NCBI GenBank assembly: GCA_001788925.1
Contig: MFXS01000005.1
Coordinates: 9,561-49,011, forward strand
Reading direction: 5' to 3'
DNA: 39,451 bases
DNA from: Candidatus Peribacteria bacterium RIFCSPHIGHO2_01_FULL_55_13
Lineage (GTDB): Bacteria > Patescibacteriota > Gracilibacteria > Peribacterales > Peribacteraceae
A program made the translations under genes and the position numbers. The notes under the pieces are model-generated. The model searched no databases. It saw only the letters and a program-made list of their open reading frames with translations, and was not told the origin of the DNA. This document shows positions 8,901 to 39,194 of the stretch, in pieces; within the stretch, counting starts at the first letter, position 1; every line of letters starts with the position of its first letter.

Positions 8901-8913
8901 ATCGAAAGCATAA

Positions 8914-8965
8914 AGCAAAAAGGATAAAGCAAAAAGGTTTTTGCTCTTTGCTTTATGCTTTTTGC
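8914..8965. repeat. Intergenic hairpin of AAAGCAAAAAG words
   Basis: The left arm (8914-8937) and right arm (8941-8965) are near-perfect complements built from AAAGCAAAAAGG and CATAAAGC words. It lies between the FemAB-like gene stop (8967) and the start of the next gene downstream. The same words occur at 26081-26130 and 34905-34966. It may act as a terminator. Confidence 0.75.
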
Positions 8966-11275: not shown

Positions 11276-11368
11276 GGTTGCGGAGTTTGCGGAGTTATGC
11301 GGAGGTTGCGGAGATGCGATGCAGAGAAACTTCGCAACCTCCGCAACCCTCGCAACCTTCGCAAACAG
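11276..11368. repeat. Long hairpin array of GCGGAGGTT words
   Basis: The inner stem is 15 base pairs (11299-11313 with 11330-11344, one G-T pair). It is extended outward by further imperfect words such as GTTTGCGGAGTT and AACCTTCGCAAAC. It exactly fills the gap between the Mur ligase stop and the aminotransferase start, in the middle of a same-strand gene group. Similar words occur at 1-58. Confidence 0.8.
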
Positions 11369-13003: not shown

Positions 13004-13990
13004 ATGACAAACCGCAAACTGGTTCAGGGACTTATCGGTGCGTACGCTGGATTCGTTGTCGGCGTTACGCTTCTCGGTTCATCGGTGAACCTTCTCGGAA
13101 GTACGCTGAACTTTTTCACGGATCCCATCTCCACACAGCGCCTTGCGGAATTCGACGATGACGGCGACAGCATCCCCGACCTCATCAACGGTCCGCGCAT
13201 TCTTGAAATCTTCCGTTCAGCCGCCGATGTCTTCGCGCCGCTCTTCGGGCATCCGACGATGGTCCCCAACATGATTCGCCTCGATGACGCGTTTGAAATG
13301 CCGGGCACCTCCACGCACCCCGCCGCTCCGGTGATGCATATCTCGGAACCCACGGGTGCCTTCGATGAAGTCGCGCCGAGGTTTGCGCCCGAAGACATCC
13401 GCGTGTCCAATGAATTCCAGGGAGGCAATGCCGCCCCGGGAATATATCTCGTGCCCATCGCGTCGCCTTCCTCGAGTCTTCCGGCATTCCTGTCGATGCC
13501 GCCTCCACCGGTGCCACCTTCTTCTGCCGCGAGCGCACCTTCGTTTGGCCCTTCGAGCACCCCTCCGGCGGTTACTGCTCCGCCTTCGAGCACGCCTCCG
13601 GTGACGAGCACACCACCGGCGGTTACTCCTCCCGTGACGACTTCGAGTTCCACTTCCTCAGCGGGTATCTGTTCCGATGGTATCGACAATGATACCGATG
13701 GTTGGATGGATAGCATGGATGCCGATTGTGATAGTTCCACCAACGTATCGAGCAGCCCCTCTTCGGCCATGGGCATCTGTTCCGACGGCCTCGACAATGA
13801 TGTCGACGGTTGGATGGACAGCATGGATGCCGACTGTGATAGCTCTACCAACGTATCGAGCAATCCCTCTTCGTCCATGGGCATCTGTTCGGACAGTATC
13901 GATAATGACACCGATGGCTGGATGGACAGTATGGATGCAGACTGCGATACGATGAATAATTCGCCTTCCAGCGCCGGATCCCCCTTCTAA
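13004..13990 (+). CDS. Cell-surface protein with Pro/Ser/Thr stalk and three Asp-rich repeats
   Basis: This 328-residue protein has one N-terminal hydrophobic segment (about residues 7-33), then FDDDGDSIPDLING, an Asp-rich calcium-loop-like motif at about 46-60. Residues about 150-218 are a Pro/Ser/Thr stalk. The C-terminus is three tandem 36-residue repeats with the core CSDGIDNDTDGWMDSMDADC. Each repeat has two Cys and many Asp, as in the DNDxDGxxD metal-binding repeats of bacterial surface proteins. This suggests an anchored, extracellular calcium-binding, possibly disulfide-stabilised protein. It has the best promoter in the window and a clear terminator, so it is likely abundant. The Ser/Thr kinase gene follows directly. 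Confidence 0.82.
   Translation: MTNRKLVQGLIGAYAGFVVGVTLLGSSVNLLGSTLNFFTDPISTQRLAEFDDDGDSIPDLINGPRILEIFRSAADVFAPLFGHPTMVPNMIRLDDAFEMPGTSTHPAAPVMHISEPTGAFDEVAPRFAPEDIRVSNEFQGGNAAPGIYLVPIASPSSSLPAFLSMPPPPVPPSSAASAPSFGPSSTPPAVTAPPSSTPPVTSTPPAVTPPVTTSSSTSSAGICSDGIDNDTDGWMDSMDADCDSSTNVSSSPSSAMGICSDGLDNDVDGWMDSMDADCDSSTNVSSNPSSSMGICSDSIDNDTDGWMDSMDADCDTMNNSPSSAGSPF
13664..13963 (+). repeat. Three tandem 108-base coding repeats
   Basis: Units begin at 13664, 13772 and 13880, with a period of exactly 108 bases (36 codons). The third lacks the Ser/Asn linker. Differences between units are mostly at third codon positions (for example GAT/GAC, GGT/GGC), so the protein repeat is under selection while the DNA has drifted. 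Confidence 0.9.
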
Positions 13991-14054: not shown

Positions 14055-16559
14055 ATGGGCGCCCTTGATCTATCATCGGACGGCCTCATGCATGTTCATG
14101 CAGGCAGCGCAGCTTCGGAGTCTGGGACTACTCCGTTAAAAACTGCGGTTTTGGAAACCGCAGATTCTTGGGATGAATTTAGAATATGGATGCATGACTC
14201 TGGCGTAGAGAGTTTGCAGAGCAGATACCCTGGTATGGCATCAGCTGACTCCGCTTCTCCGAATGTTGAAGCAAGGTTGATCGCCTCAGGAGTCCCCCCC
14301 GCCATTGCCCGCTCGTTGCTTGATCAACATCGTGCAGACCGTGATGTCCATTCTGTTTCCCGTCTGCAATTTTCGCCGGGGGTTACCGGCATTTCTAGGA
14401 TCGGTGAGGGAAATACATCGAATGTCTTTGCGAGTCAGGTGTTTGACGCAGCGGCACTGAAGGCCGACTTGCAACATTTTCTTACGGATGTGGCAGGTAT
14501 TCATAATGGAAAGTTGAGCGATATTGAAAGACAGGTAAGCGAAATAATCGATCGCATTTCCCAAAGTACCAATCTTTGGGTGACTAAAGTCCTGAAATCC
14601 ACAAGATTCTTGCGTCGAACAAAAGCGGAAATAAGAACCATTCTGCTCAAGGGGAGGGAATTACCGAATATTCCTGCGGTGGTGGGTGGTAAATCCGCTC
14701 CGGATGCCCTGCTTTTTCATATGCAACATATCCCCGGCCTCGATCTTCAGCGCGTAATGGATCTCTGGGGTACAAGATCAACCCCCATGCGATTCAATCA
14801 GGATGCCGCAGCTCTCAGCGCACGATCAATCGCAACAAACGATCAAGCGGGGGTTATCCATCGGGATATTAAGCCCGCTAACTTTCTCGTCGCAGATGAT
14901 GGAAGATTCTACACGTTGGATTTGGGTTTTGCCCGCGATGAAGAAAATGAGTCACAACAGAGCATTGCAGACGGTACTGTAGGGGTGGGAACACCGATGT
15001 TTATCGCTCCCGAACAAGCCCGTCGCGATCCTGAGGTGACATCGGCTGCCGACGTGTTTTCTTTGGGAGTGATGCTCTGGAGAATGTACACCGGGCAATT
15101 TCCGTATGGTGCTCCTAATGCCGCTGTAGCGGTTGTGGTAGCAGAACGTTTGAGCATGCGTGCAGGCCATAAAGTTCCCGAATTTGATGCGGCTCCGGAG
15201 TCCTTGGCCGGAGTAGATCCGCAGCGTGCCAAGCGTTTCCTTCGGGAATTGAAACCGATGCTCGAAAGTATGATTGACCCTGATCCGAAGGCACGCCCGA
15301 CACCGGATCGTGTCGCAAACTTCTTCCGATCGCATAGCAGCTTCGGGGCTACTTCTTTCGATGAGTTCATGAAGATTGAAACGTATCATCAGCACCGCCT
15401 CTCTCTTGATCCTCTTGTTTCCGCTCCGGAAGGAGATGTTCCGGTAAAACATCGTTACAAAACCGACGGGGCCATGGTAGATGCTCTTGTGAATGGAACG
15501 CAGGGACGTGCAAAGCAATATGATTTTTTGGCGAATCCCGCATTTGATCCTGTAGAAGACGAGGATGCCTTAGCGAGCGTGTCACCGGAGGCAGGTTCTC
15601 CGCTTGTTGAGGCAGCTGCCATTCCATCCTCAGATACTGCGGCACTGGTGGCCGCAATAGATACGCTCCCGCCGGAGACAAGGGTTGCTCTTGTTCAGGC
15701 ACTCGAGCATTCAAAGGAAAGCGGTGGCCCTTCCAAGCGCATACGGGTAACGATTGGAGCAGTCGTGGTTGTAGTGGTTGCGGGTGTGGTCACGCTCTTG
15801 CTCAATAATGGAGGAAAGACGAAGGAAGGCGACGCTAAAGCTGTTGCGGTTGCTCCGTTGGATGGGAAAAAGGAAGGAAGTGGTTTGCCTGATGTAGGCA
15901 AGGCTGCAGCGCAGCACACGGAAGTAGCGACGACAGTCGAAGTGCCCAAGCCTCCGGAGCGTGCCATGGAATTCAAAACCGGGCCGGGCGGGCCGGAAGA
16001 ACTGCGTCTTTTCCGTACCGATTCCATCAAGTTCAGCGCCAAAGACATGATGCCTCTCTATTCTGGTAATGGGAAAGATCAAATTCTCGTGGGTGCGGGA
16101 TTTCAGTGCACGCCCGAACACATTGCCCGTATTCTGAAGCTTTCTGATGTTTCGCAGATTCCCGAGGGTGTTCGCAAGAATCTCGAGAGTTTCCAAAAGA
16201 ACCAGGGGGGGATTCTGGGATATACCTTGCAGCTGGAAGACGGAACGGGTGGTACCTGGATCAACACCGTAGGGCTATTCGTGGAAAACAGAGAGGGGGA
16301 AATGGTCTTTTTCTCCAGTGTTGAGGAATTCGCCAAGGCACGGGAAGCGGAGTTTGTCCGCCATGGGGGACTGCAGGCAATGACGACGGACCCTGCATCC
16401 ATCCATCTGCTGCGCAATGCCAAAGACATTACGGGTACCGGCGTGAAGCCCGCGCATTGGAGCGGCGAACTCGCAGACGACGATATGTGGAAGCGCACCG
16501 TAAATCAGCTCCTGTCTTTCCGAAATCGTATAGATCCCGATGCTGTTGGGCAGCGTTAA
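14055..16559 (+). CDS. Transmembrane Ser/Thr protein kinase (Hanks type)
   Basis: The 834-residue protein starts at the ATG at 14055; an in-frame TTG at 14037 lies inside the terminator stem and is less likely. The kinase domain spans about residues 112-425: a Gly-rich loop (IGEGNTSNVFAS, near 115), the ATP-binding Lys in LWVTKVLK (near 178), the catalytic loop HRDIKPANF (near 268), the metal-binding motif DLG instead of DFG (near 290), APEQA (near 320) and ADVFSLGVMLWRMYTG. About 45 extra residues separate the Gly loop from the ATP-binding Lys. After an acidic linker a single transmembrane helix is at about 563-580, and a roughly 250-residue extracytoplasmic domain of unknown family ends the protein. 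It probably senses an envelope signal. Confidence 0.88.
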   Translation: MGALDLSSDGLMHVHAGSAASESGTTPLKTAVLETADSWDEFRIWMHDSGVESLQSRYPGMASADSASPNVEARLIASGVPPAIARSLLDQHRADRDVHSVSRLQFSPGVTGISRIGEGNTSNVFASQVFDAAALKADLQHFLTDVAGIHNGKLSDIERQVSEIIDRISQSTNLWVTKVLKSTRFLRRTKAEIRTILLKGRELPNIPAVVGGKSAPDALLFHMQHIPGLDLQRVMDLWGTRSTPMRFNQDAAALSARSIATNDQAGVIHRDIKPANFLVADDGRFYTLDLGFARDEENESQQSIADGTVGVGTPMFIAPEQARRDPEVTSAADVFSLGVMLWRMYTGQFPYGAPNAAVAVVVAERLSMRAGHKVPEFDAAPESLAGVDPQRAKRFLRELKPMLESMIDPDPKARPTPDRVANFFRSHSSFGATSFDEFMKIETYHQHRLSLDPLVSAPEGDVPVKHRYKTDGAMVDALVNGTQGRAKQYDFLANPAFDPVEDEDALASVSPEAGSPLVEAAAIPSSDTAALVAAIDTLPPETRVALVQALEHSKESGGPSKRIRVTIGAVVVVVVAGVVTLLLNNGGKTKEGDAKAVAVAPLDGKKEGSGLPDVGKAAAQHTEVATTVEVPKPPERAMEFKTGPGGPEELRLFRTDSIKFSAKDMMPLYSGNGKDQILVGAGFQCTPEHIARILKLSDVSQIPEGVRKNLESFQKNQGGILGYTLQLEDGTGGTWINTVGLFVENREGEMVFFSSVEEFAKAREAEFVRHGGLQAMTTDPASIHLLRNAKDITGTGVKPAHWSGELADDDMWKRTVNQLLSFRNRIDPDAVGQR

Positions 16560-17305
16560 AGCGCAGTCCGTTTCCGAATTACCTCCGCTATCTCCCTAGC
16601 CTTATCCCTATGCACCCGGTGCCGAACGCCTTTGTAGAGATGCAGCGTGCTTCCGGCGATTTCCTTGTGCATCACATGTGCGTCGGACACCGGCGTCATC
16701 CCGTCGTCTTCGCCCCAGAAGATGTCTGTGGGAACGGTGATTGTTGAGAGCAACGGGCGCAGATCTTCTTTTGTCACATTGATCATCGTCTGGCGCATGA
16801 TGGGCGAGGCCTGTTCGTAATCGTGCACGCGCACAAGGCGGTAGAGGAATTTCTTTCCGAGTGGCTCAAGGGACTTGAGTCCTGGAACCTTCAGCAAGGT
16901 CTTCCCGGTTTTTGCGAGTGTCAGGCCGAAAATCCGTTTGAAGTGGCGAGGGTGGCGGATGCCAGCGGAGGCGCAGAGGAAAAAGTGGGACGGCAGTGGA
17001 AAGTGGAAAGTGGAAAGTGGAAAACGAACAAGCATTTTGATTGCGATGCGTCCGCCGTGACTGTGGCCAAGCAACATCAGCTTTCCATTTTCCACTTTCC
17101 ACTTTCCACTTTGGCGAAGCCAATTTTCCACCCAATCGGCATAATTATCCGTCGTCCACGGTTCTTTCGGTTCAGGTTCATTGCCAAACCCCGGTAGGTC
17201 CGGCGTGAGGATCTTGATATCACTTCCTTTCAAAGCCTCGCGGAGCTCCGTGAAGGATTCCGAGGAACCGCCCCAGCCGTGCAAACAAAGAAGAGTCGTA
17301 GGCAA
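16556..17305 (-). CDS. Alpha/beta hydrolase carrying word-array inserts
   Basis: This 249-residue serine hydrolase has LCLHGWGGSSESF (oxyanion region), the nucleophile elbow GHSHGG, the acid strand FWGEDDGMTPV and the catalytic His region GVRHRVHRDK. The substrate is unknown. Two segments flanking the nucleophile elbow, KWKVENGK and RFPLSTFHFPLPSHF, are translated from tandem heptamers arranged as an inverted repeat (16996-17109) and look like additions to the fold. The gene uses a TTG start with TACACT seven bases upstream. Its stop overlaps the kinase stop through a shared TTAA (16556-16559), a convergent arrangement with no room for a separate terminator. Confidence 0.85.
   Translation of the reverse strand: MPTTLLCLHGWGGSSESFTELREALKGSDIKILTPDLPGFGNEPEPKEPWTTDNYADWVENWLRQSGKWKVENGKLMLLGHSHGGRIAIKMLVRFPLSTFHFPLPSHFFLCASAGIRHPRHFKRIFGLTLAKTGKTLLKVPGLKSLEPLGKKFLYRLVRVHDYEQASPIMRQTMINVTKEDLRPLLSTITVPTDIFWGEDDGMTPVSDAHVMHKEIAGSTLHLYKGVRHRVHRDKAREIAEVIRKRTAL
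16996..17109. repeat. Inverted heptamer array inside the hydrolase gene
   Basis: Four tandem GTGGAAA units (16996-17023) face four tandem TTTCCAC/T units (17082-17109). The 58-base loop between them encodes the nucleophile elbow. Both arms are in frame and translated. Confidence 0.92.
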
Positions 17306-25505: not shown

Positions 25506-26081
25506 ATGTCTTCCGCTCAAAGCAACTCTGCCAGCGACTCCTCTTTGGAACTTCAGGTTCTGCAAAAACAACTTGAAGATCTTCAGGCGCAGTTCGCCGC
25601 GATGACGGGCGAGCTGGACAGCGCGAAAGCCGAAGCCGCAAAGATGAAAGATCTCGCGGCGCGGTCGCAGGCGGATCTGCAGAATGCCAAGGCGCGGGTG
25701 GAACGGGAGCGTGCGGATCTCGCTGTGTTTGCATTGGAGGCGATGCTCCGGAAATTACTGCCGACGATCGATAGTTTTCAGCGTGCTTTCCAGCATCTTC
25801 CGGAAGATCTCAAGAGTCACGAAAGGGCTAGCCCTGAGATTCTCGAATGGGTGAAGGGGGTTACGGCTATCGAGCGGCAATTATTGAAAGAGCTTGAAGG
25901 AGCGGGGCTGCGGCGCATGTCCTCCCTCGGTACGGTGGTGGATCCGCAGCGGCATGAAGTCCTGCAGCAAGGACCAGGCGAAAAAGATACCGTCACGGAA
26001 GTGTTTGAGGAGGGGTACGAGCTTGCGGGAAAAGTTCTTCGGCCGGCGAAGGTGAAAGTGGGGGGCGGGACCAACGGATAA
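25506..26081 (+). CDS. grpE: GrpE nucleotide exchange factor
   Basis: GrpE, 191 residues, releases ADP from DnaK. A long N-terminal coiled coil (about residues 10-80) leads into LRKLLPTIDSFQRAF and then the beta-domain (LEGAGLRRMSSLGTVVDPQRHEVLQQGPGE, EVFEEGYELAGKVLRPAKVKVG), which is the full family pattern. TAAGAT ends eight bases before the ATG. dnaK and dnaJ are not in the window. No heat-shock inverted repeat is visible upstream. A hairpin array follows the stop. Confidence 0.95.
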   Translation: MSSAQSNSASDSSLELQVLQKQLEDLQAQFAAMTGELDSAKAEAAKMKDLAARSQADLQNAKARVERERADLAVFALEAMLRKLLPTIDSFQRAFQHLPEDLKSHERASPEILEWVKGVTAIERQLLKELEGAGLRRMSSLGTVVDPQRHEVLQQGPGEKDTVTEVFEEGYELAGKVLRPAKVKVGGGTNG

Positions 26082-26130
26082 AGCAAAAAGGATAATGGAA
26101 AAAAGTTTTTTTTCATTATCCTTTTTGCTT
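26081..26130 (+). terminator. Word-array hairpin after grpE
   Basis: A perfect 17-base-pair stem (26081-26097 with 26114-26130) is built from AAGCAAAAAGGATAATG words with an A/T-rich loop. It starts at the grpE stop codon and is likely to end both grpE and the convergent VTT-like gene. The same words recur at 8914-8965 and 34905-34966. Confidence 0.75.
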
Positions 26131-26136
26131 TTTGCA

Positions 26137-26710: not shown

Positions 26711-28078
26711 TTATACCAGATTTTTGCCTTCTATGCATCTGCGGAAAACGTCGCCCTTTTCCTCAAAGTTCCGGAACATTCCGTAGCTGGGGGAGGCGGT
26801 GGACAGCAAAACGATAGGGACGATTTGCGATTTGCGATTTGCGATTTGCGATTTGGCCCTCTCGACTGCTTCTTGCATAGTTTCGACTTCAAAAAAATCT
26901 ATGTGGGCCTTTGATGCCTGAATTGCTTCACGGATGCGCGGGCCCGAGCCGGGGAAGAGGATCACGGTCTTGATCTTGGACTCTGCAATGCGCTTTCCGA
27001 GCGCCGTGAAATCGTTGCCGCGATCCTGGCCGCCGAGAATGATTGTCGCAACGCGATCACCCAGTGCATTCAATGCCGCGATCGTAGATTCCGGCGTTGT
27101 CGAGATCGCATCATCCACCCACTCTGCGCCGTGACGGATCCCGAGCGATTGCAGGCGGTGGGGGAGTCCTTGGAAATTCTGAATCACGGGAATGCTGACG
27201 CGCTCAGGAATTCCGAGGAGACGTGTGGTGAGAAAAGCGATCGCGGCGTTGCGGCGGTTATGTTCACCTTTCAGCTCCATCGATTCTGCAGGCAGATCTT
27301 CCGCCTGCGCGGCGATGCGCTTTCCGGGACTGTGCATCGCGATCTCTTCTGCACCGGAAGACGACGCGTCGTAGACCACAAAATCCGCTTCGGTTTGAAA
27401 GCGGGTGATATGGGATTTTGCCTCCAGATAATTCTCTAGTGGAGTGCTGCTTGCGGGGCTTGCCATGAGCGAGCCGCAGCGAGTCGAATGGTAATCGAGG
27501 TGTTCCGGGAAGAACGTGGTGATGACAGAAATGGGAGGGCTCACGTGGCAATCCATGAGTTGGTAACTGCTCATTTCCAGAACAAAAATGGTTCGCTGCG
27601 GCTCACTACGAGCTGTATCTAGGGATGCGTCTTTCAAGTGCGCAATCGCAGGCTCTCCGATGTTGCCAACGAGGAATGTTTTTTTGTCGCCGGCCTTCAG
27701 GATTTCATGAATCAGCGTTGAGGTCGTGCTCTTTCCTTTGGATCCCGTCACGCCGATCACCGTCGCTCCGCGTGCGGCGGCTTCTTCGAGGAAGATTTGC
27801 GTGGAGTTGGTGATCTTCTTTCCAACCTTCGCCGGAATATCTTTGGGAGGGATGCCGGGAGACTTGATGATCACGTCGAATGTTCCCAGATTCTCGAGCC
27901 AGCCTTCACCGATCTGTTTCCCGTGCGCTTCGCCTTCCACGAGGGTTGCCGGATTCTTATCCGCAATCGTGATGGCACATTCCGGCGCAAATTCTTCCAA
28001 AGCCTTCACCATCGCTTTGCCCTCTTTGCCGTACCCGAGGATACAGACCGTGCGGCCGTTGAGATCGTGGAGAAGCAT
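26711..28078 (-). CDS. murD: UDP-N-acetylmuramoyl-L-alanine--glutamate ligase (MurD, probably MurD2 type)
   Basis: MurD, 455 residues from the ATG at 28078, adds glutamate to UDP-MurNAc-L-Ala in the cytoplasm. The Rossmann N-domain (VCILGYGKEGKAMVKAL), ATP loop GVTGSKGKSTTSTL, central-domain FPEHLDYH and GEHNRRNAAIAF, and C-domain GGQDRGNDF and SPSYGMFRNFEEKGD are all visible. Because murL is directly upstream, it probably uses L-Glu (MurD2) rather than D-Glu. Three coding inserts look repeat-derived: 27583-27617, 27445-27490 and five CGATTTG heptamers at 26821-26855. The longer frame to 28132 is rejected because it reads through a palindrome. Confidence 0.92.
   Translation of the reverse strand: MLLHDLNGRTVCILGYGKEGKAMVKALEEFAPECAITIADKNPATLVEGEAHGKQIGEGWLENLGTFDVIIKSPGIPPKDIPAKVGKKITNSTQIFLEEAAARGATVIGVTGSKGKSTTSTLIHEILKAGDKKTFLVGNIGEPAIAHLKDASLDTARSEPQRTIFVLEMSSYQLMDCHVSPPISVITTFFPEHLDYHSTRCGSLMASPASSTPLENYLEAKSHITRFQTEADFVVYDASSSGAEEIAMHSPGKRIAAQAEDLPAESMELKGEHNRRNAAIAFLTTRLLGIPERVSIPVIQNFQGLPHRLQSLGIRHGAEWVDDAISTTPESTIAALNALGDRVATIILGGQDRGNDFTALGKRIAESKIKTVILFPGSGPRIREAIQASKAHIDFFEVETMQEAVERAKSQIANRKSQIVPIVLLSTASPSYGMFRNFEEKGDVFRRCIEGKNLV
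26821..26855. repeat. Five tandem heptamers inside murD
   Basis: CGATTTG is repeated five times without error. On the coding strand it encodes KSQIANRKSQI, a stretch between two conserved MurD segments where the family normally has a short loop. Confidence 0.95.
27471..27604. repeat. Inverted repeat TCGCTGCGGCTC inside murD
   Basis: A 12-base perfect inverted repeat (27471-27482 and 27593-27604), extended imperfectly on both sides, lies in two in-frame inserts of murD. Related sequence (GCTCGGCTGCGGCCGAGC, 28511-28528, followed by TGGCAGGCC) lies in murL. Confidence 0.65.
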
Positions 28079-28101
28079 AGAAAGCGTCGGTTGTGATTGT
28101 A

Positions 28102-28124
28102 GAGACGCAACGCTGTTGCGTCTC
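28102..28124. repeat. GAGACG palindrome, copy 1
   Basis: The 23-base element GAGACG-N11-CGTCTC is perfectly self-complementary in its arms and is preceded by GTA. It lies in the short gap between the murL stop and the murD ATG. Copies 2 and 3 are at 29139-29161 and 31481-31503. Confidence 0.8.
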
Positions 28125-28135
28125 CCATCCATCCA

Positions 28136-32621: not shown

Positions 32622-33917
32622 ATGACTGCCAAGAAATCCACTCCGTACACACGGTTCAAAACGATACTGGAAGAGGTCCTTACGAAAATCGAAGTGAGTC
32701 CTGCGGAACGCAAAATGCTCAATGAGCCCCAGGCGATCCACCGCGAGGAGATCACCATAAAAAAAGACGACGGGAAGAAGGCGACTTTTCCCGCTTTTCG
32801 TGTGCAGTTCAATAACGCGCGTGGTCCCTACAAAGGGGGCATCCGGTACCATCAGGATGCGGATCTCGATGAAGTGAAAGCGCTCGCAGCACTCATGGCG
32901 ATCAAGACGGCCGTCGTGGATATTCCCTTTGGCGGAGGAAAAGGCGGCGTGCAGTGCAATCCCAAGGACTTGAGCAAGCGGGAGCTCCAGGAGGTCTCGC
33001 GGGCCTACGTCCGGGCGTTTGCAAAGCATCTTGGGCCGGATATCGATTGCCCTGCACCGGATGTGAATACGACGCCGGACATCATGGCGTGGATGCGCGA
33101 CGAGTATGAAAAAATCACCAACACCTACGCTCCCGCGATGATTACGGGAAAGCCGCTGGCGTATGGCGGATCGCTCGGGCGCGACACGGCCACCGCGCGC
33201 GGAGGATTCTTCATTCTGCAGGAACTCGTCGAGCGCGATGCGTTGGATCCCAGTGAACTTCGCGTCGTCATCCAGGGGTTTGGAAACGCCGGAGGACACA
33301 TGGCGGAACTGCTCCACGGCGCGGGCTACACGATCGTCGCGGTTTCGGATTCCCACGGCGGCATCTACAACGCCGAAGGGCTCGATCCGGTTCGTATCGA
33401 GAAGTACAAGCGCAAGAACGGCACGGTGGCAGGGGAGTACTGCACGGGGTCCGTCTGCGATCTGGAGCGTATGAAGATGGACGGCGTAAAGCGGATCACC
33501 AATGAAGAACTGCTCGAGCTTCCCTGCGACATCCTTATTCCTGCAGCGCTCGATAATGTCATCACGGCGGACAATGCGAAAAACATCCGCGCAAAACTCA
33601 TTCTTGAACTCGCCAACGGCCCGACGACTCCCGAGGCGGATGCGATTCTCGCGAAGAAAAAGGTGAAAGTGATTCCCGATGTTCTTGCCAATGCCGGTGG
33701 TGTCACGGTGAGCTACTTCGAATGGGTGCAAGGAAGATCGGGCGAACAGTGGACAGCCGAGCGCATCGATCATGATCTCAAGCGCGTGATGCTTGCGGCG
33801 TTCCGCGACGTGCGTCGTACCGCGTACCGGGAAAAGATGACGTACCGCGAGGCGGCGTTTGCGGTGGGACTACGGAGGATCGTTGCGGCGATGCGGGCAC
33901 GCGGATGGGTCAATTGA
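32622..33917 (+). CDS. gdhA: Glutamate (Glu/Leu/Phe/Val family) dehydrogenase
   Basis: The 431-residue enzyme interconverts glutamate with 2-oxoglutarate and ammonia. The catalytic domain shows GPYKGGIRYHQD, AALMAIKTAVVDIPFGGGKGGV (substrate-binding Lys) and PAPDVNTTPDIMAWMRDEYEK. The nucleotide domain has VVIQGFGNAGGHMAELL. EILIPAAL-type and ANGPTTPEAD motifs follow. Length and motifs fit the hexameric family. In a small genome with MurD/MurL nearby it would be a plausible source of the L-Glu used for peptidoglycan. No clear -10 element is at the start. Confidence 0.95.
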   Translation: MTAKKSTPYTRFKTILEEVLTKIEVSPAERKMLNEPQAIHREEITIKKDDGKKATFPAFRVQFNNARGPYKGGIRYHQDADLDEVKALAALMAIKTAVVDIPFGGGKGGVQCNPKDLSKRELQEVSRAYVRAFAKHLGPDIDCPAPDVNTTPDIMAWMRDEYEKITNTYAPAMITGKPLAYGGSLGRDTATARGGFFILQELVERDALDPSELRVVIQGFGNAGGHMAELLHGAGYTIVAVSDSHGGIYNAEGLDPVRIEKYKRKNGTVAGEYCTGSVCDLERMKMDGVKRITNEELLELPCDILIPAALDNVITADNAKNIRAKLILELANGPTTPEADAILAKKKVKVIPDVLANAGGVTVSYFEWVQGRSGEQWTAERIDHDLKRVMLAAFRDVRRTAYREKMTYREAAFAVGLRRIVAAMRARGWVN

Positions 33918-33975
33918 GAATGGAGGAATTGAGAATGGAGAATTAATTCTCCATTCTCAATTCTCAATTCTCAAT
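33911..33975. repeat. Hairpin array of TTGAGAATGGA words after gdhA
   Basis: The central stem is 15 perfect base pairs (33931-33945 with 33946-33960), extended by extra TTGAGAATGGA words on the left and ATTCTCA/TTCTCAA words on the right. It starts inside the gdhA stop region and ends at the -10 box of the next gene, so it may be both terminator and promoter spacer. Confidence 0.85.
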
Positions 33976-33987
33976 TATACTTGGACT

Positions 33988-34908
33988 ATGTTTGACGTCC
34001 TGATCATCGGCCTTGGCTGTGCCGGCTACACCGCGGCCATCTACACCGCGCGCTACAAGCTCAAGACGTTCATCGTGGGCGCGGAAGACGGGGGGATGGG
34101 GCTTACGGCGGCAGAAGTAGGCAATTGGCCGGGGATCATCGATATCAAAGGTCCGGATCTCATGGAGAACTTCAAGAAGCATGCGACGTCGTTTGAGGAA
34201 GTCACGCACAAGATCGCGCGTGTGGAGAAGCTCGAGAAGATCGCCGGTGGTTTTCGTATGACCCTGCAGGATGGCGCAGTCATCGAAGGAAAGACCGTCA
34301 TCCTCGCGACGGGATCAGCAAAAAGAATGCTCGGGACGAAAGGCGAGAAGGAATTCTCCGGCAAAGGCGTTACCTACTGTGCAACGTGCGACGCATTCTT
34401 CTATCGCAACAAAGATGTTGCCGTGATCGGCGGAGGAGATTCGGCAGTCGAAGGTGCCGCGATCGCCGCACAAGTCGCGAAGACCGTGTATCTCATCCAC
34501 CGGCGTAACGAATTCCGCGCGGAGCCGTACTGGGTGGATCGCGTGAAGGCGAGACCCAACGTTCGATTTGTATTAGAGCGCAATGTTTTGGAAATATTCG
34601 GTGATGCCAAGGTTAAAGGTGTGAAACTCGACAAGCCCTTCGAGGGATCGGATTCCATAGCAGTCGACGGCGTCTTCATCGAAGTAGGATCCATTCCTTC
34701 GGTGGGACTCGCCACCGGCCTGGGTGCAAAACTCGACGACAAGGGCTTCATCGCGGTGACGCCTGATCAGCAGACTTCGGTGCCCGGACTCTTCGCAGCC
34801 GGCGACAACACCAGCGAAAGCAATCACTTCGCGCAATTCACAACGGCGGCAGGGGAGGGAGCGGTAGCGGCGAATGGGGTGTTTACGTACATTCAGGGGA
34901 ATGCATAA
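33988..34908 (+). CDS. trxB: Thioredoxin reductase
   Basis: The product is 306 residues from the ATG at 33988. The FAD motif is GLGCAGYTAAIY (GxGxxG), the redox centre CATC lies in VTYCATCDAFFY, the NAD(P) motif is GGGDSAVEGA followed by HRRNEFRAEPYW, and GLFAAGDNT closes the FAD site. It reduces thioredoxin or a similar disulfide carrier with NAD(P)H in the cytoplasm. TATACT-TGGACT-ATG gives the clearest leaderless start in the window. Thioredoxin itself is not seen here. Confidence 0.95.
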   Translation: MFDVLIIGLGCAGYTAAIYTARYKLKTFIVGAEDGGMGLTAAEVGNWPGIIDIKGPDLMENFKKHATSFEEVTHKIARVEKLEKIAGGFRMTLQDGAVIEGKTVILATGSAKRMLGTKGEKEFSGKGVTYCATCDAFFYRNKDVAVIGGGDSAVEGAAIAAQVAKTVYLIHRRNEFRAEPYWVDRVKARPNVRFVLERNVLEIFGDAKVKGVKLDKPFEGSDSIAVDGVFIEVGSIPSVGLATGLGAKLDDKGFIAVTPDQQTSVPGLFAAGDNTSESNHFAQFTTAAGEGAVAANGVFTYIQGNA

Positions 34909-37477: not shown

Positions 37478-39043
37478 ATGCCCCGCCCTTCCCACCGTCA
37501 TTCTGTGATTCTGCCGCTTCTGGCCCTGAGTATTCTCGGGACGGGAGTTGCGGCGAATAGCTCCGGCGGAATGCAGGCGGTTTCTGCTCCGTTTTTGAGC
37601 CACGGCCAGACGCTCATCGTACATCCGTCGGGCGTGCAGGGGATTGTGCTCGAGGGAGCACGTATGGATGAAACGGAATCCATCCCGGAGCTTCTCGAAG
37701 GATCAGCTCTCATCGTATCCCATGCTCCCATTGAACTTCGTGTGGGAGCGTTTCGCGTCCAGTCGATCGGAGGCGGATATCACATCACCAAAAGTGGAAA
37801 CGGCATTACCGTGGCCGCGCTTACCACTCCCGTGCTCCTCACCAAAGGTGCTCTGCGCGCCGTGGTGCCTGTGGGCATGCAGTGGAAGATCACCGGGGAA
37901 TCCTTACCTCTTTGGAAAGAAGGAGCGCAGGCCTGGATGGACGCGCGCTCCGTTCGCCCTTTGCCGAAGCGTTTCTGGGATGAGCAGCGTGAACTTCTGC
38001 AGACGATTCTCGTCAAAAACACTCTCCCCGAAGCCCGGGTGCAGATTCCGCTGAAGCCTGAAGCCGGAGTCGCGGAACTGCCCGAAGCAGGAAACCGGCG
38101 GGCAGCCGAATGGTCCCAGTCCGTTCTCGGTGTTCTGCGCTCACGCGTGGAATCCGACGATGTCATCACCGTCCAGGAACTTCTTTTGCGTCCGGATCTC
38201 GCCGAAGCATTTTCCACTCCGCGGGCCCGCAGTGTCGCTGCGACTCTTCTCTTTTCAGACGATCGTTCCTCTGCCATGCAGCAGCAATTGCTTCCGATCC
38301 TGCTTTCCCAAAGTGACTTGTGGCTTTTGCTTTCGCTCCATCCTGCCGTTTCTACCGTTGCATGGACGCTTCCCGCGCCTGCGCATGACGGCGAAACCGC
38401 GGCACTTCGACTCTTCCTGTTTCCCTACGCGGATAGGAGCGACGCCGCAGGCCATGCCTCCGCATGGAACCGTTGGCAGGAAGAACTTCTTGCCTCGGTG
38501 CAGGCATCTGCGGATCGTGCCTCCATCGGTAACGAACTGATCATCCGCCTTGGTGCGCTTGCACAGTCGCGCGAAGAGGGCGGATACCCCGCGCGTGCGC
38601 GGTTTATTGCCGCAACAATATTCACGCTTTCCAAAAACATTCCCTCCGTTTCCCCGGAGGCACGCGAGACGCTTTCGGTGCTCAAGCGTCTCGACAGAGT
38701 CGAAGGCCGGGTGCTTGCGGATTCTGCTCCTTCATCCGCTACAAAAGCTCTTGAACCCGTGGACGCTCCCGAGGCTCTCTTTGATGCTTTGTTTGTGGAA
38801 TCGCAGGCACGTGAGATGCTGCGAAGTGCCGGCGCAGCCTTCTCTCTGGAAACCCGCATCATCCCGCTGAACGCGCACTCCGCACTGGTCGAAAAAATCG
38901 TCTTTGCGGGAAATGGCCGCGACCGGACGATCGATTTCACGCTGGATATCGGCCGCAGCGAAGTATCCCGCATCCGCGAAAAAGGAGAGGAGTTTGCTTA
39001 TGCGCTGCCGATTGGGGCGTTTGTGGAGTGGATCCGACGCTGA
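37478..39043 (+). CDS. Large predicted secreted protein
   Basis: The product is 521 residues from the ATG at 37478; the upstream in-frame ATG at 37436 would put charged residues before the signal and lies before the promoter. A signal peptide is clear (PRPSHRHSVILPLLALSILGTGVAANS, cleavage probably near residue 26). The next 100 residues are beta-rich (LIVHPSGVQGIVLEGA, IELRVGAFRVQSIGGGYHITK) and resemble a small sandwich domain. The rest is helical and Leu/Ala/Glu-rich without a known motif. TATACT (37451-37456) lies 21 bases upstream. It may continue the ruvC transcript. No family is recognised. Confidence 0.8.
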   Translation: MPRPSHRHSVILPLLALSILGTGVAANSSGGMQAVSAPFLSHGQTLIVHPSGVQGIVLEGARMDETESIPELLEGSALIVSHAPIELRVGAFRVQSIGGGYHITKSGNGITVAALTTPVLLTKGALRAVVPVGMQWKITGESLPLWKEGAQAWMDARSVRPLPKRFWDEQRELLQTILVKNTLPEARVQIPLKPEAGVAELPEAGNRRAAEWSQSVLGVLRSRVESDDVITVQELLLRPDLAEAFSTPRARSVAATLLFSDDRSSAMQQQLLPILLSQSDLWLLLSLHPAVSTVAWTLPAPAHDGETAALRLFLFPYADRSDAAGHASAWNRWQEELLASVQASADRASIGNELIIRLGALAQSREEGGYPARARFIAATIFTLSKNIPSVSPEARETLSVLKRLDRVEGRVLADSAPSSATKALEPVDAPEALFDALFVESQAREMLRSAGAAFSLETRIIPLNAHSALVEKIVFAGNGRDRTIDFTLDIGRSEVSRIREKGEEFAYALPIGAFVEWIRR

Positions 39044-39194
39044 GCTTCTCAGCTTCTCAGCTTCTTGGCTTCTCAGCTGCTCAGCTGCTCAGCTGCTCAG
39101 CTGCTCAGCTGCTCAGGGGAAAAATCTCCACAGCATGTTTCGCGTGAAGATGCATCCCCCGAAAAGCTAAGCAGCTGAGAAGCTGAGCAGCTAA
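39043..39194. repeat. Octamer array with inverted partner
   Basis: Nine tandem octamers (AGCTTCTC, then AGCTGCTC five times) fill 39043-39114. After a 49-base spacer, AAGCTAAGCAGCTGAGAAGC and following words (39164-39194) form the reverse complement of both word types. The array begins in the stop region of the secreted-protein gene and ends at the stop of the next minus-strand gene. Confidence 0.92.

Follow-up and report, generated by a model that had tools for sequence, protein, structure and literature searches.

In-frame heptamer arrays recur in the same two loops of an alpha/beta hydrolase and in other genes of Peribacterales

In the stretch of Candidatus Peribacteria DNA analyzed here (39,451 nucleotides; hereafter the window), an alpha/beta hydrolase gene contains two arrays of a 7-base unit, inverted relative to each other, on either side of the codons for its nucleophile elbow. 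The arrangement raises the question of whether the arrays are tied to the active site or have come to lie around it through a process unrelated to catalysis, and of how a gene can hold repeats whose unit length is not divisible by three and still keep its reading frame. The features concerned are as follows.

16556..17305, minus strand: gene for a 249-aa alpha/beta hydrolase, listed with a TTG start, candidate triad S82, D201, and H229
16996..17023, plus strand: array C, GTGGAAA x4 (TTTCCAC on the coding strand), encoding FPLSTFHFPL where helix alphaC ends and within the alphaC-beta6 loop
17024..17081: spacer of 58 bases with the codons for beta5, the GHSHGG nucleophile elbow, and helix alphaC
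17082..17112, plus strand: array A, TTTCCAT + TTTCCAC x3 + TTT (GTGGAAA on the coding strand), encoding KWKVENGK in the alphaB-beta5 loop

The earlier note, which was made from the sequence alone, had described four GTGGAAA and four TTTCCAC/T units around the 58 bases coding for the GHSHGG elbow, and this description was confirmed both in the sequence and by Tandem Repeats Finder, which detected the two arrays with scores of 58 and 57. The four full units of array A (TTTCCAT and TTTCCAC x3) occupy 17082-17109, and a single TTTCCAC at 17125-17131, outside the array, forms codons of a conserved WVEN stretch. Between the two loops, the inverted match is exact over at most 25 bp, and the window has 16 occurrences of GTGGAAA where 5.6 would be expected, a count reached by none of 100 shuffles. 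The frame is indeed open across both arrays, which are translated, as RQSGKWKVENGKLMLLGHSHGGRIAIKMLVRFPLSTFHFPLPSHFF, within the 249-residue ORF 16556-17305 on the minus strand. The assignment of the product to the alpha/beta hydrolase fold is based on Pfam matches (PF00561, E 1e-19; PF12697, E 2e-17), an elbow of the GxSxG type, the canonical aspartate and histidine, and a fold match; S82, D201, and H229 are conserved or nearly so in the hydrolase alignment.

The bracketing of the elbow can be understood from the fold. In a structure model with a mean pLDDT of 85, the residues encoded by array A are predicted to lie between helix H52-66 and strand E75-81, and those encoded by array C at the end of helix H83-97, before strand E107-111, which would put both segments in or beside loops; the earlier note had asked whether they are exposed at the surface. 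In alpha/beta hydrolases, the turn that follows beta5 forms the nucleophile elbow, and the helix-to-strand loops are at the opposite end of the sheet. Segments that bracket the elbow in sequence therefore need not be close to it in the folded protein, and judging from the order of secondary structure elements, the array loops probably lie at a distance from the active site; the elbow is bracketed because two tolerant loops flank the strand-elbow-helix unit in the fold. A special tie of the arrays to the active site, as the earlier note had implied, found no support, and an active-site-specific function was rejected, because the same two loops take many different, unrelated heptamers in other hydrolases, and murD and many other genes are no less open to arrays.

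The hydrolase was found in 81 of the 115 genomes searched, and those relatives that carry names are Ca. Peribacteria or Peregrinibacteria metagenome genomes. In their alignment, length and content vary at two places. The first links helix B to beta5, immediately ahead of LLGHSHGG, and the second links helix C to beta6, immediately ahead of LCAAAG; the commonest state is a pair of short, array-free loops with segments of 60 and 39 nt. The segments of the window gene are thus absent from many relatives, a point that the earlier note had asked to be checked. Their lengths, 75 and 57 nt, exceed the commonest ones by only 15 and 18 nt, however, which indicates that part of each array replaces ancestral loop sequence; the claim that the arrays add residues around the elbow is correct insofar as they are translated in frame, but they are not a simple addition. 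When 64 hydrolases of the same family were scanned for arrays at strict and relaxed thresholds, 24 had a period-7 array in one or both loops. The strict threshold gave 26 such arrays (14 in loop A and 12 in loop C) and the relaxed one 31 (16 and 15), with none elsewhere in any of the 64 genes at either threshold, and periods 5, 6, 8, 9, and 10 gave at most four matches each. The units are mostly genome-specific (CAACCAG, TCAATTG, AGATACA, CCCTACG, GAAGCTA, and others), so that relatives share the places of the arrays and almost never the segments themselves; homologs from unrelated lineages with the same segments at the same place, which the earlier note had named as a refutation, were not seen. 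Because the in-frame pattern recurs at homologous loops across many separate genomes, an assembly artifact was also rejected. A different insert, with the peptide PPLPNPLPxGEG, was observed in loop A of two relatives (L005 and L007); it belongs to a second repeat family (CCCTCTCCC...GGGAGAGGG-type, encoding PPLPNPLPxGEG or PPLPSGE) that is found in frame in loop A of these two and of L020, and also in an O-antigen-ligase-like gene (L081, 12820-14256).

In a gene tree from which the loop columns and the broken G003 copy were excluded, the 16 carriers of an array in loop A require 14 changes and the 13 carriers in loop C require 11, although the tree is poorly resolved. The relatives L066 and L046 are 93% identical outside the loops and match at only 12 of 39 positions in loop A, which holds an array in L066 but not in L046, so that turnover is fast. 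Such scattered tips of the tree could also arise from repeated loss or rewriting of older arrays.

The hydrolase is far from being the only gene affected. Two further loci in the window are the following.

26821..26855, plus strand: CGATTTG x5 within murD (26711-28132, minus strand), encoding SQIANRKSQI; relatives have different heptamers there
33912..33976: AATGGAG-type and ATTCTCC-type heptamer arrays, an inverted pair nearly without spacer, where ORF 32622-33917 meets ORF 33859-34908 (by eye, the former resembles a glutamate dehydrogenase and the latter a thioredoxin reductase)

Among 22 murD genes, 20 arrays of period 7 were counted against one of period 6 and two of period 9, and they recur at set places, such as SPGIPP[...]TQIF and AK[...]PIVLLS, with differing units. 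An O-antigen-ligase-like gene carries the same GTGGAAA inverted pair as the hydrolase, with a 60-base spacer. A mobile element shared by these two pairs, with their 58- and 60-base spacers, was considered and rejected because the spacers are ordinary gene sequence and the flanks of other GTGGAAA arrays do not match. Additional repeats were observed in the window: inverted pairs with 7- and 9-base units at 8905-8965, 11278-11364, and 26076-26135, mostly near gene ends and with almost no or short spacers; an octamer array, GCTCAGCT, of about 10 copies at 39039-39116 with its inverted form, AAGCTGAG, at 39164-39192, a similar architecture with an 8-base unit; and, in ORF 13004-13990, a 108-bp tandem repeat of 2.7 copies (13663-13949) that encodes the Cys/Asp-rich repeat GICSDGIDNDTDGWMDSMDADCDSS.

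A sample of 372 kb from the genome of the window contains 55 exact heptamer arrays, whereas Markov shuffles contain none. With mismatches allowed, there are 56, about 20-38 bp long and made of 23 different units, none of them dominant. Thirty-eight of these lie fully inside predicted genes, with predicted coding sequence making up 86% of the sample, and the units of 35 of the 38 are free of stop codons in every frame of the coding strand. GTGGAAA arrays are present at about 13 places in the genome, and no common flank was seen by eye at these arrays. Pairs of arrays with the same unit number 85 against 1.8 expected, a count that includes inverted partners, which explain a small part of it only; this sharing argues that arrays have been copied between places or that a few units are favored, rather than each array having arisen from a random seed. 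The claim that a repeat architecture otherwise found in gaps has entered a gene without breaking it is borne out in the window, since the genome has GTGGAAA at about a dozen further places, but intactness is not a rule, as the same-genus copy (G003) discussed below has its frame interrupted at loop A. The pattern extends to the family: 1.75 Mb from 59 sampled genomes gave 123 arrays of period 7 compared with 9, 18, and 21 of periods 6, 8, and 9, and at least one array was present in 34 of the 59. Other families of the class have few, with two in the 200 kb sampled.

Inversion is likewise a habit of the whole genome. An inverted two-unit copy lies within 200 bp of 27 of the 56 arrays and a direct copy near only two, while none of 280 random places in the control had an inverted copy, and the relation between the two hydrolase arrays is accordingly an instance of a genome-wide tendency. 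Most array-carrying hydrolases have one array only, and where relatives have arrays in both loops, the units are mostly unrelated, with one case (L024) inverted with one mismatch. The exact inverted relation is nearly unique to the window hydrolase, and pair formation is thus not independently replicated among hydrolases.

The recurrence at two loops, the differing units, the scatter on the tree, the dispersal through the genome, the excess of inverted pairs, and the open frames are best explained, with a probability that we put at roughly three in four, by a lineage-specific process that keeps depositing heptamer arrays, often inverted, which are retained in genes where loops are tolerant and the frame is held. 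Such a process in Peribacterales would place arrays of a 7-base unit, three to five copies long, here and there in the genome, frequently two together in inverted orientation, and an array within a gene would survive if the extra residues are tolerated and the net change in length preserves the frame. In the hydrolase, the tolerant places would be the alphaB-beta5 and alphaC-beta6 loops, which flank the strand-elbow-helix unit with the catalytic serine, and the arrays there are most likely near-neutral passengers. The underlying DNA mechanism might be slippage together with snap-back template switching, or the mobilization of hairpins. For the heptamers of bacteria, polymerase slippage in steps of seven bases has been put forward, as summarized in PMC4679880. 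Slippage by itself, however, yields neither inverted pairs nor shared units, and snap-back template switching might be the source of the inverted pairs.

A bolder proposal is that Peribacterales possess an activity dedicated to writing hairpin-forming heptamer arrays, perhaps that of a REP-type Y1 transposase. New low-complexity peptides would then be written again and again into the same loops, and such an activity, rather than ordinary slippage, would continually supply loop variation in core genes; we hold this to be unlikely. The narrower idea that a REP-associated tyrosine (Y1) transposase, rather than local slippage, mobilizes heptamer hairpins is a hypothesis about the generator that is compatible with the lineage-specific deposition favored here, and it too seems rather unlikely. 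It would fit the sharing of one unit by many loci of the genome and the presence there of two Y1 transposase genes (L226, 1087-1713; G000:C40:85964-86245), one of which resembles the NCBIfam family REP_Tyr_transpos, although its 70.9 bits fall short of the family cut-off of 80 bits. The REP_Tyr_transpos-like gene adjoins a queA-like gene that itself has a GTGGAAA array. PF01797 was matched in 21 of the 22 family genomes whose hydrolase has an array and in 21 of the 40 without (Fisher p 5e-4, an exploratory comparison chosen after looking). Against this, tree-aware pairing nearly always pointed in the same direction without reaching significance (median p 0.125), an unrelated transposase profile used as a control, PF00665, was weakly associated as well (p 0.046), so that the Y1 link is not fully specific, one genome (G032) has an array and no Y1 match, and no common flank was seen at GTGGAAA arrays. 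Since the tree-aware test was not significant, the unrelated transposase was weakly associated, and the comparison was post hoc, the association should be taken as a lead only.

The inverted pair might instead be functional in RNA or DNA, with a hairpin around the elbow codons tuning translation or mRNA stability or with the DNA forming a cruciform. The coding-strand RNA is predicted to fold at -74.5 kcal/mol compared with a shuffle mean of -46.8 (z -6.3), and the strong genome-wide preference for inverted over direct neighbors, 27 against 2, would agree with such a role. The hairpin is not conserved, however, because relatives with both arrays mostly have unrelated units, and the prevalence of single arrays among the carriers also speaks against the idea, which we consider improbable. 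It is equally hard to credit that the loops of these hydrolases have always been repetitive and hold a vertically inherited, decaying sequence. One array does appear to be inherited, as the sister genes L043 and L045 have a common CCCTACG array with 34 of 39 positions of loop A matching, but ancestry of this kind is very doubtful in view of the many relatives whose loops are short and array-free (60 and 39 nt being commonest), the differing units, the scattered changes on the gene tree, and the fact that the unit in the window recurs in other genes of the same genome rather than in the corresponding loop of relatives. A phase-variation switch, in which the gain or loss of one unit shifts the frame and turns the hydrolase off because seven is not a multiple of three, is the least credible alternative: the unit length is suitable, and the hydrolase frame of the same-genus G003 (Greene1014_49; L034, 1900-2250, minus strand; L118, 2165-2207) is interrupted at loop A, but the arrays are short (about four units) and present in housekeeping genes such as murD, nearly every other hydrolase of the family has an open frame through both loops, and the G003 interruption, which is either a real frameshift or an assembly error, looks to be situated in the remains of a PPLPNPLP-type insert, outside any heptamer array.

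The loops provide a repeated natural experiment, in which the same gene loops of dozens of species received differing 7-base arrays in frame, even though seven is not a multiple of three. They yield a map of insertion-tolerant loops and a way to date and compare the formation of arrays at fixed sites, as well as a direct test among slippage, template switching, and a transposase as the maker of heptamer arrays in many bacteria.

Several known systems are similar in part. REPs are mostly extragenic hairpins with one consensus per family. The Peribacterales arrays resemble the REP/REPIN and RAYT systems in being short, dispersed, hairpin-forming repeats in a genome with a REP_Tyr_transpos-like gene (a match below the curated cut-off), but differ in that no common consensus or flank was seen (flanks of GTGGAAA arrays, by eye). 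Bacterial heptamer arrays and convergent pairs are already known from Xanthomonas (GGGAATC) and Nostoc (GGGGAYT), where they are dispersed, typically in about four copies, and form many close convergent pairs, 70 of them in Xcc (PMC4692102). There, only 7-11% in Xanthomonas and about a third in Nostoc are intragenic, most being intergenic (PMC4692102). The arrays described here are similarly dispersed, with close inverted pairs exceeding direct ones (27 against 2), but in place of a single G-rich consensus of a G-quadruplex-capable type there are 23 units among 56 arrays, 38 of which are in genes. In the work of Mrazek and co-workers on long simple-sequence repeats of bacteria, as far as it is summarized in PMC4679880, heptamers are the most abundant class and units that are multiples of three are the likeliest in coding regions. 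The excess of period 7 over neighboring periods and over shuffles agrees with the first statement, whereas the frequency of a 7-base unit in frame departs from the second, as summarized there. Rickettsia palindromic elements, as reviewed in PMC10969869, are selfish-looking and are translated in frame in unrelated protein genes; they are about 150 bp long and form families with conserved peptides. Compared with that description, the present arrays are likewise in-frame, translated inserts of palindromic type in unrelated genes, but they measure 20-38 bp, have many units, and occupy the same loops across species with no shared flanking element seen. Borg tandem repeats are fast-evolving and lie in ORFs with the frame kept, and their unit lengths are divisible by three (PMC9879509); the arrays here share the location in ORFs and the keeping of the frame, with a unit length of seven, which is not divisible by three. 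The open-licence papers searched contained no report of heptamer arrays in Peribacteria, CPR, or Patescibacteria, of frequent in-frame heptamers within genes, or of different units repeatedly filling the same loops. What appears to be new relative to these systems is the combination of a unit that is not divisible by three, its common presence in genes, and the way in which, from one species to another, the same loops are repeatedly filled by different sequences.
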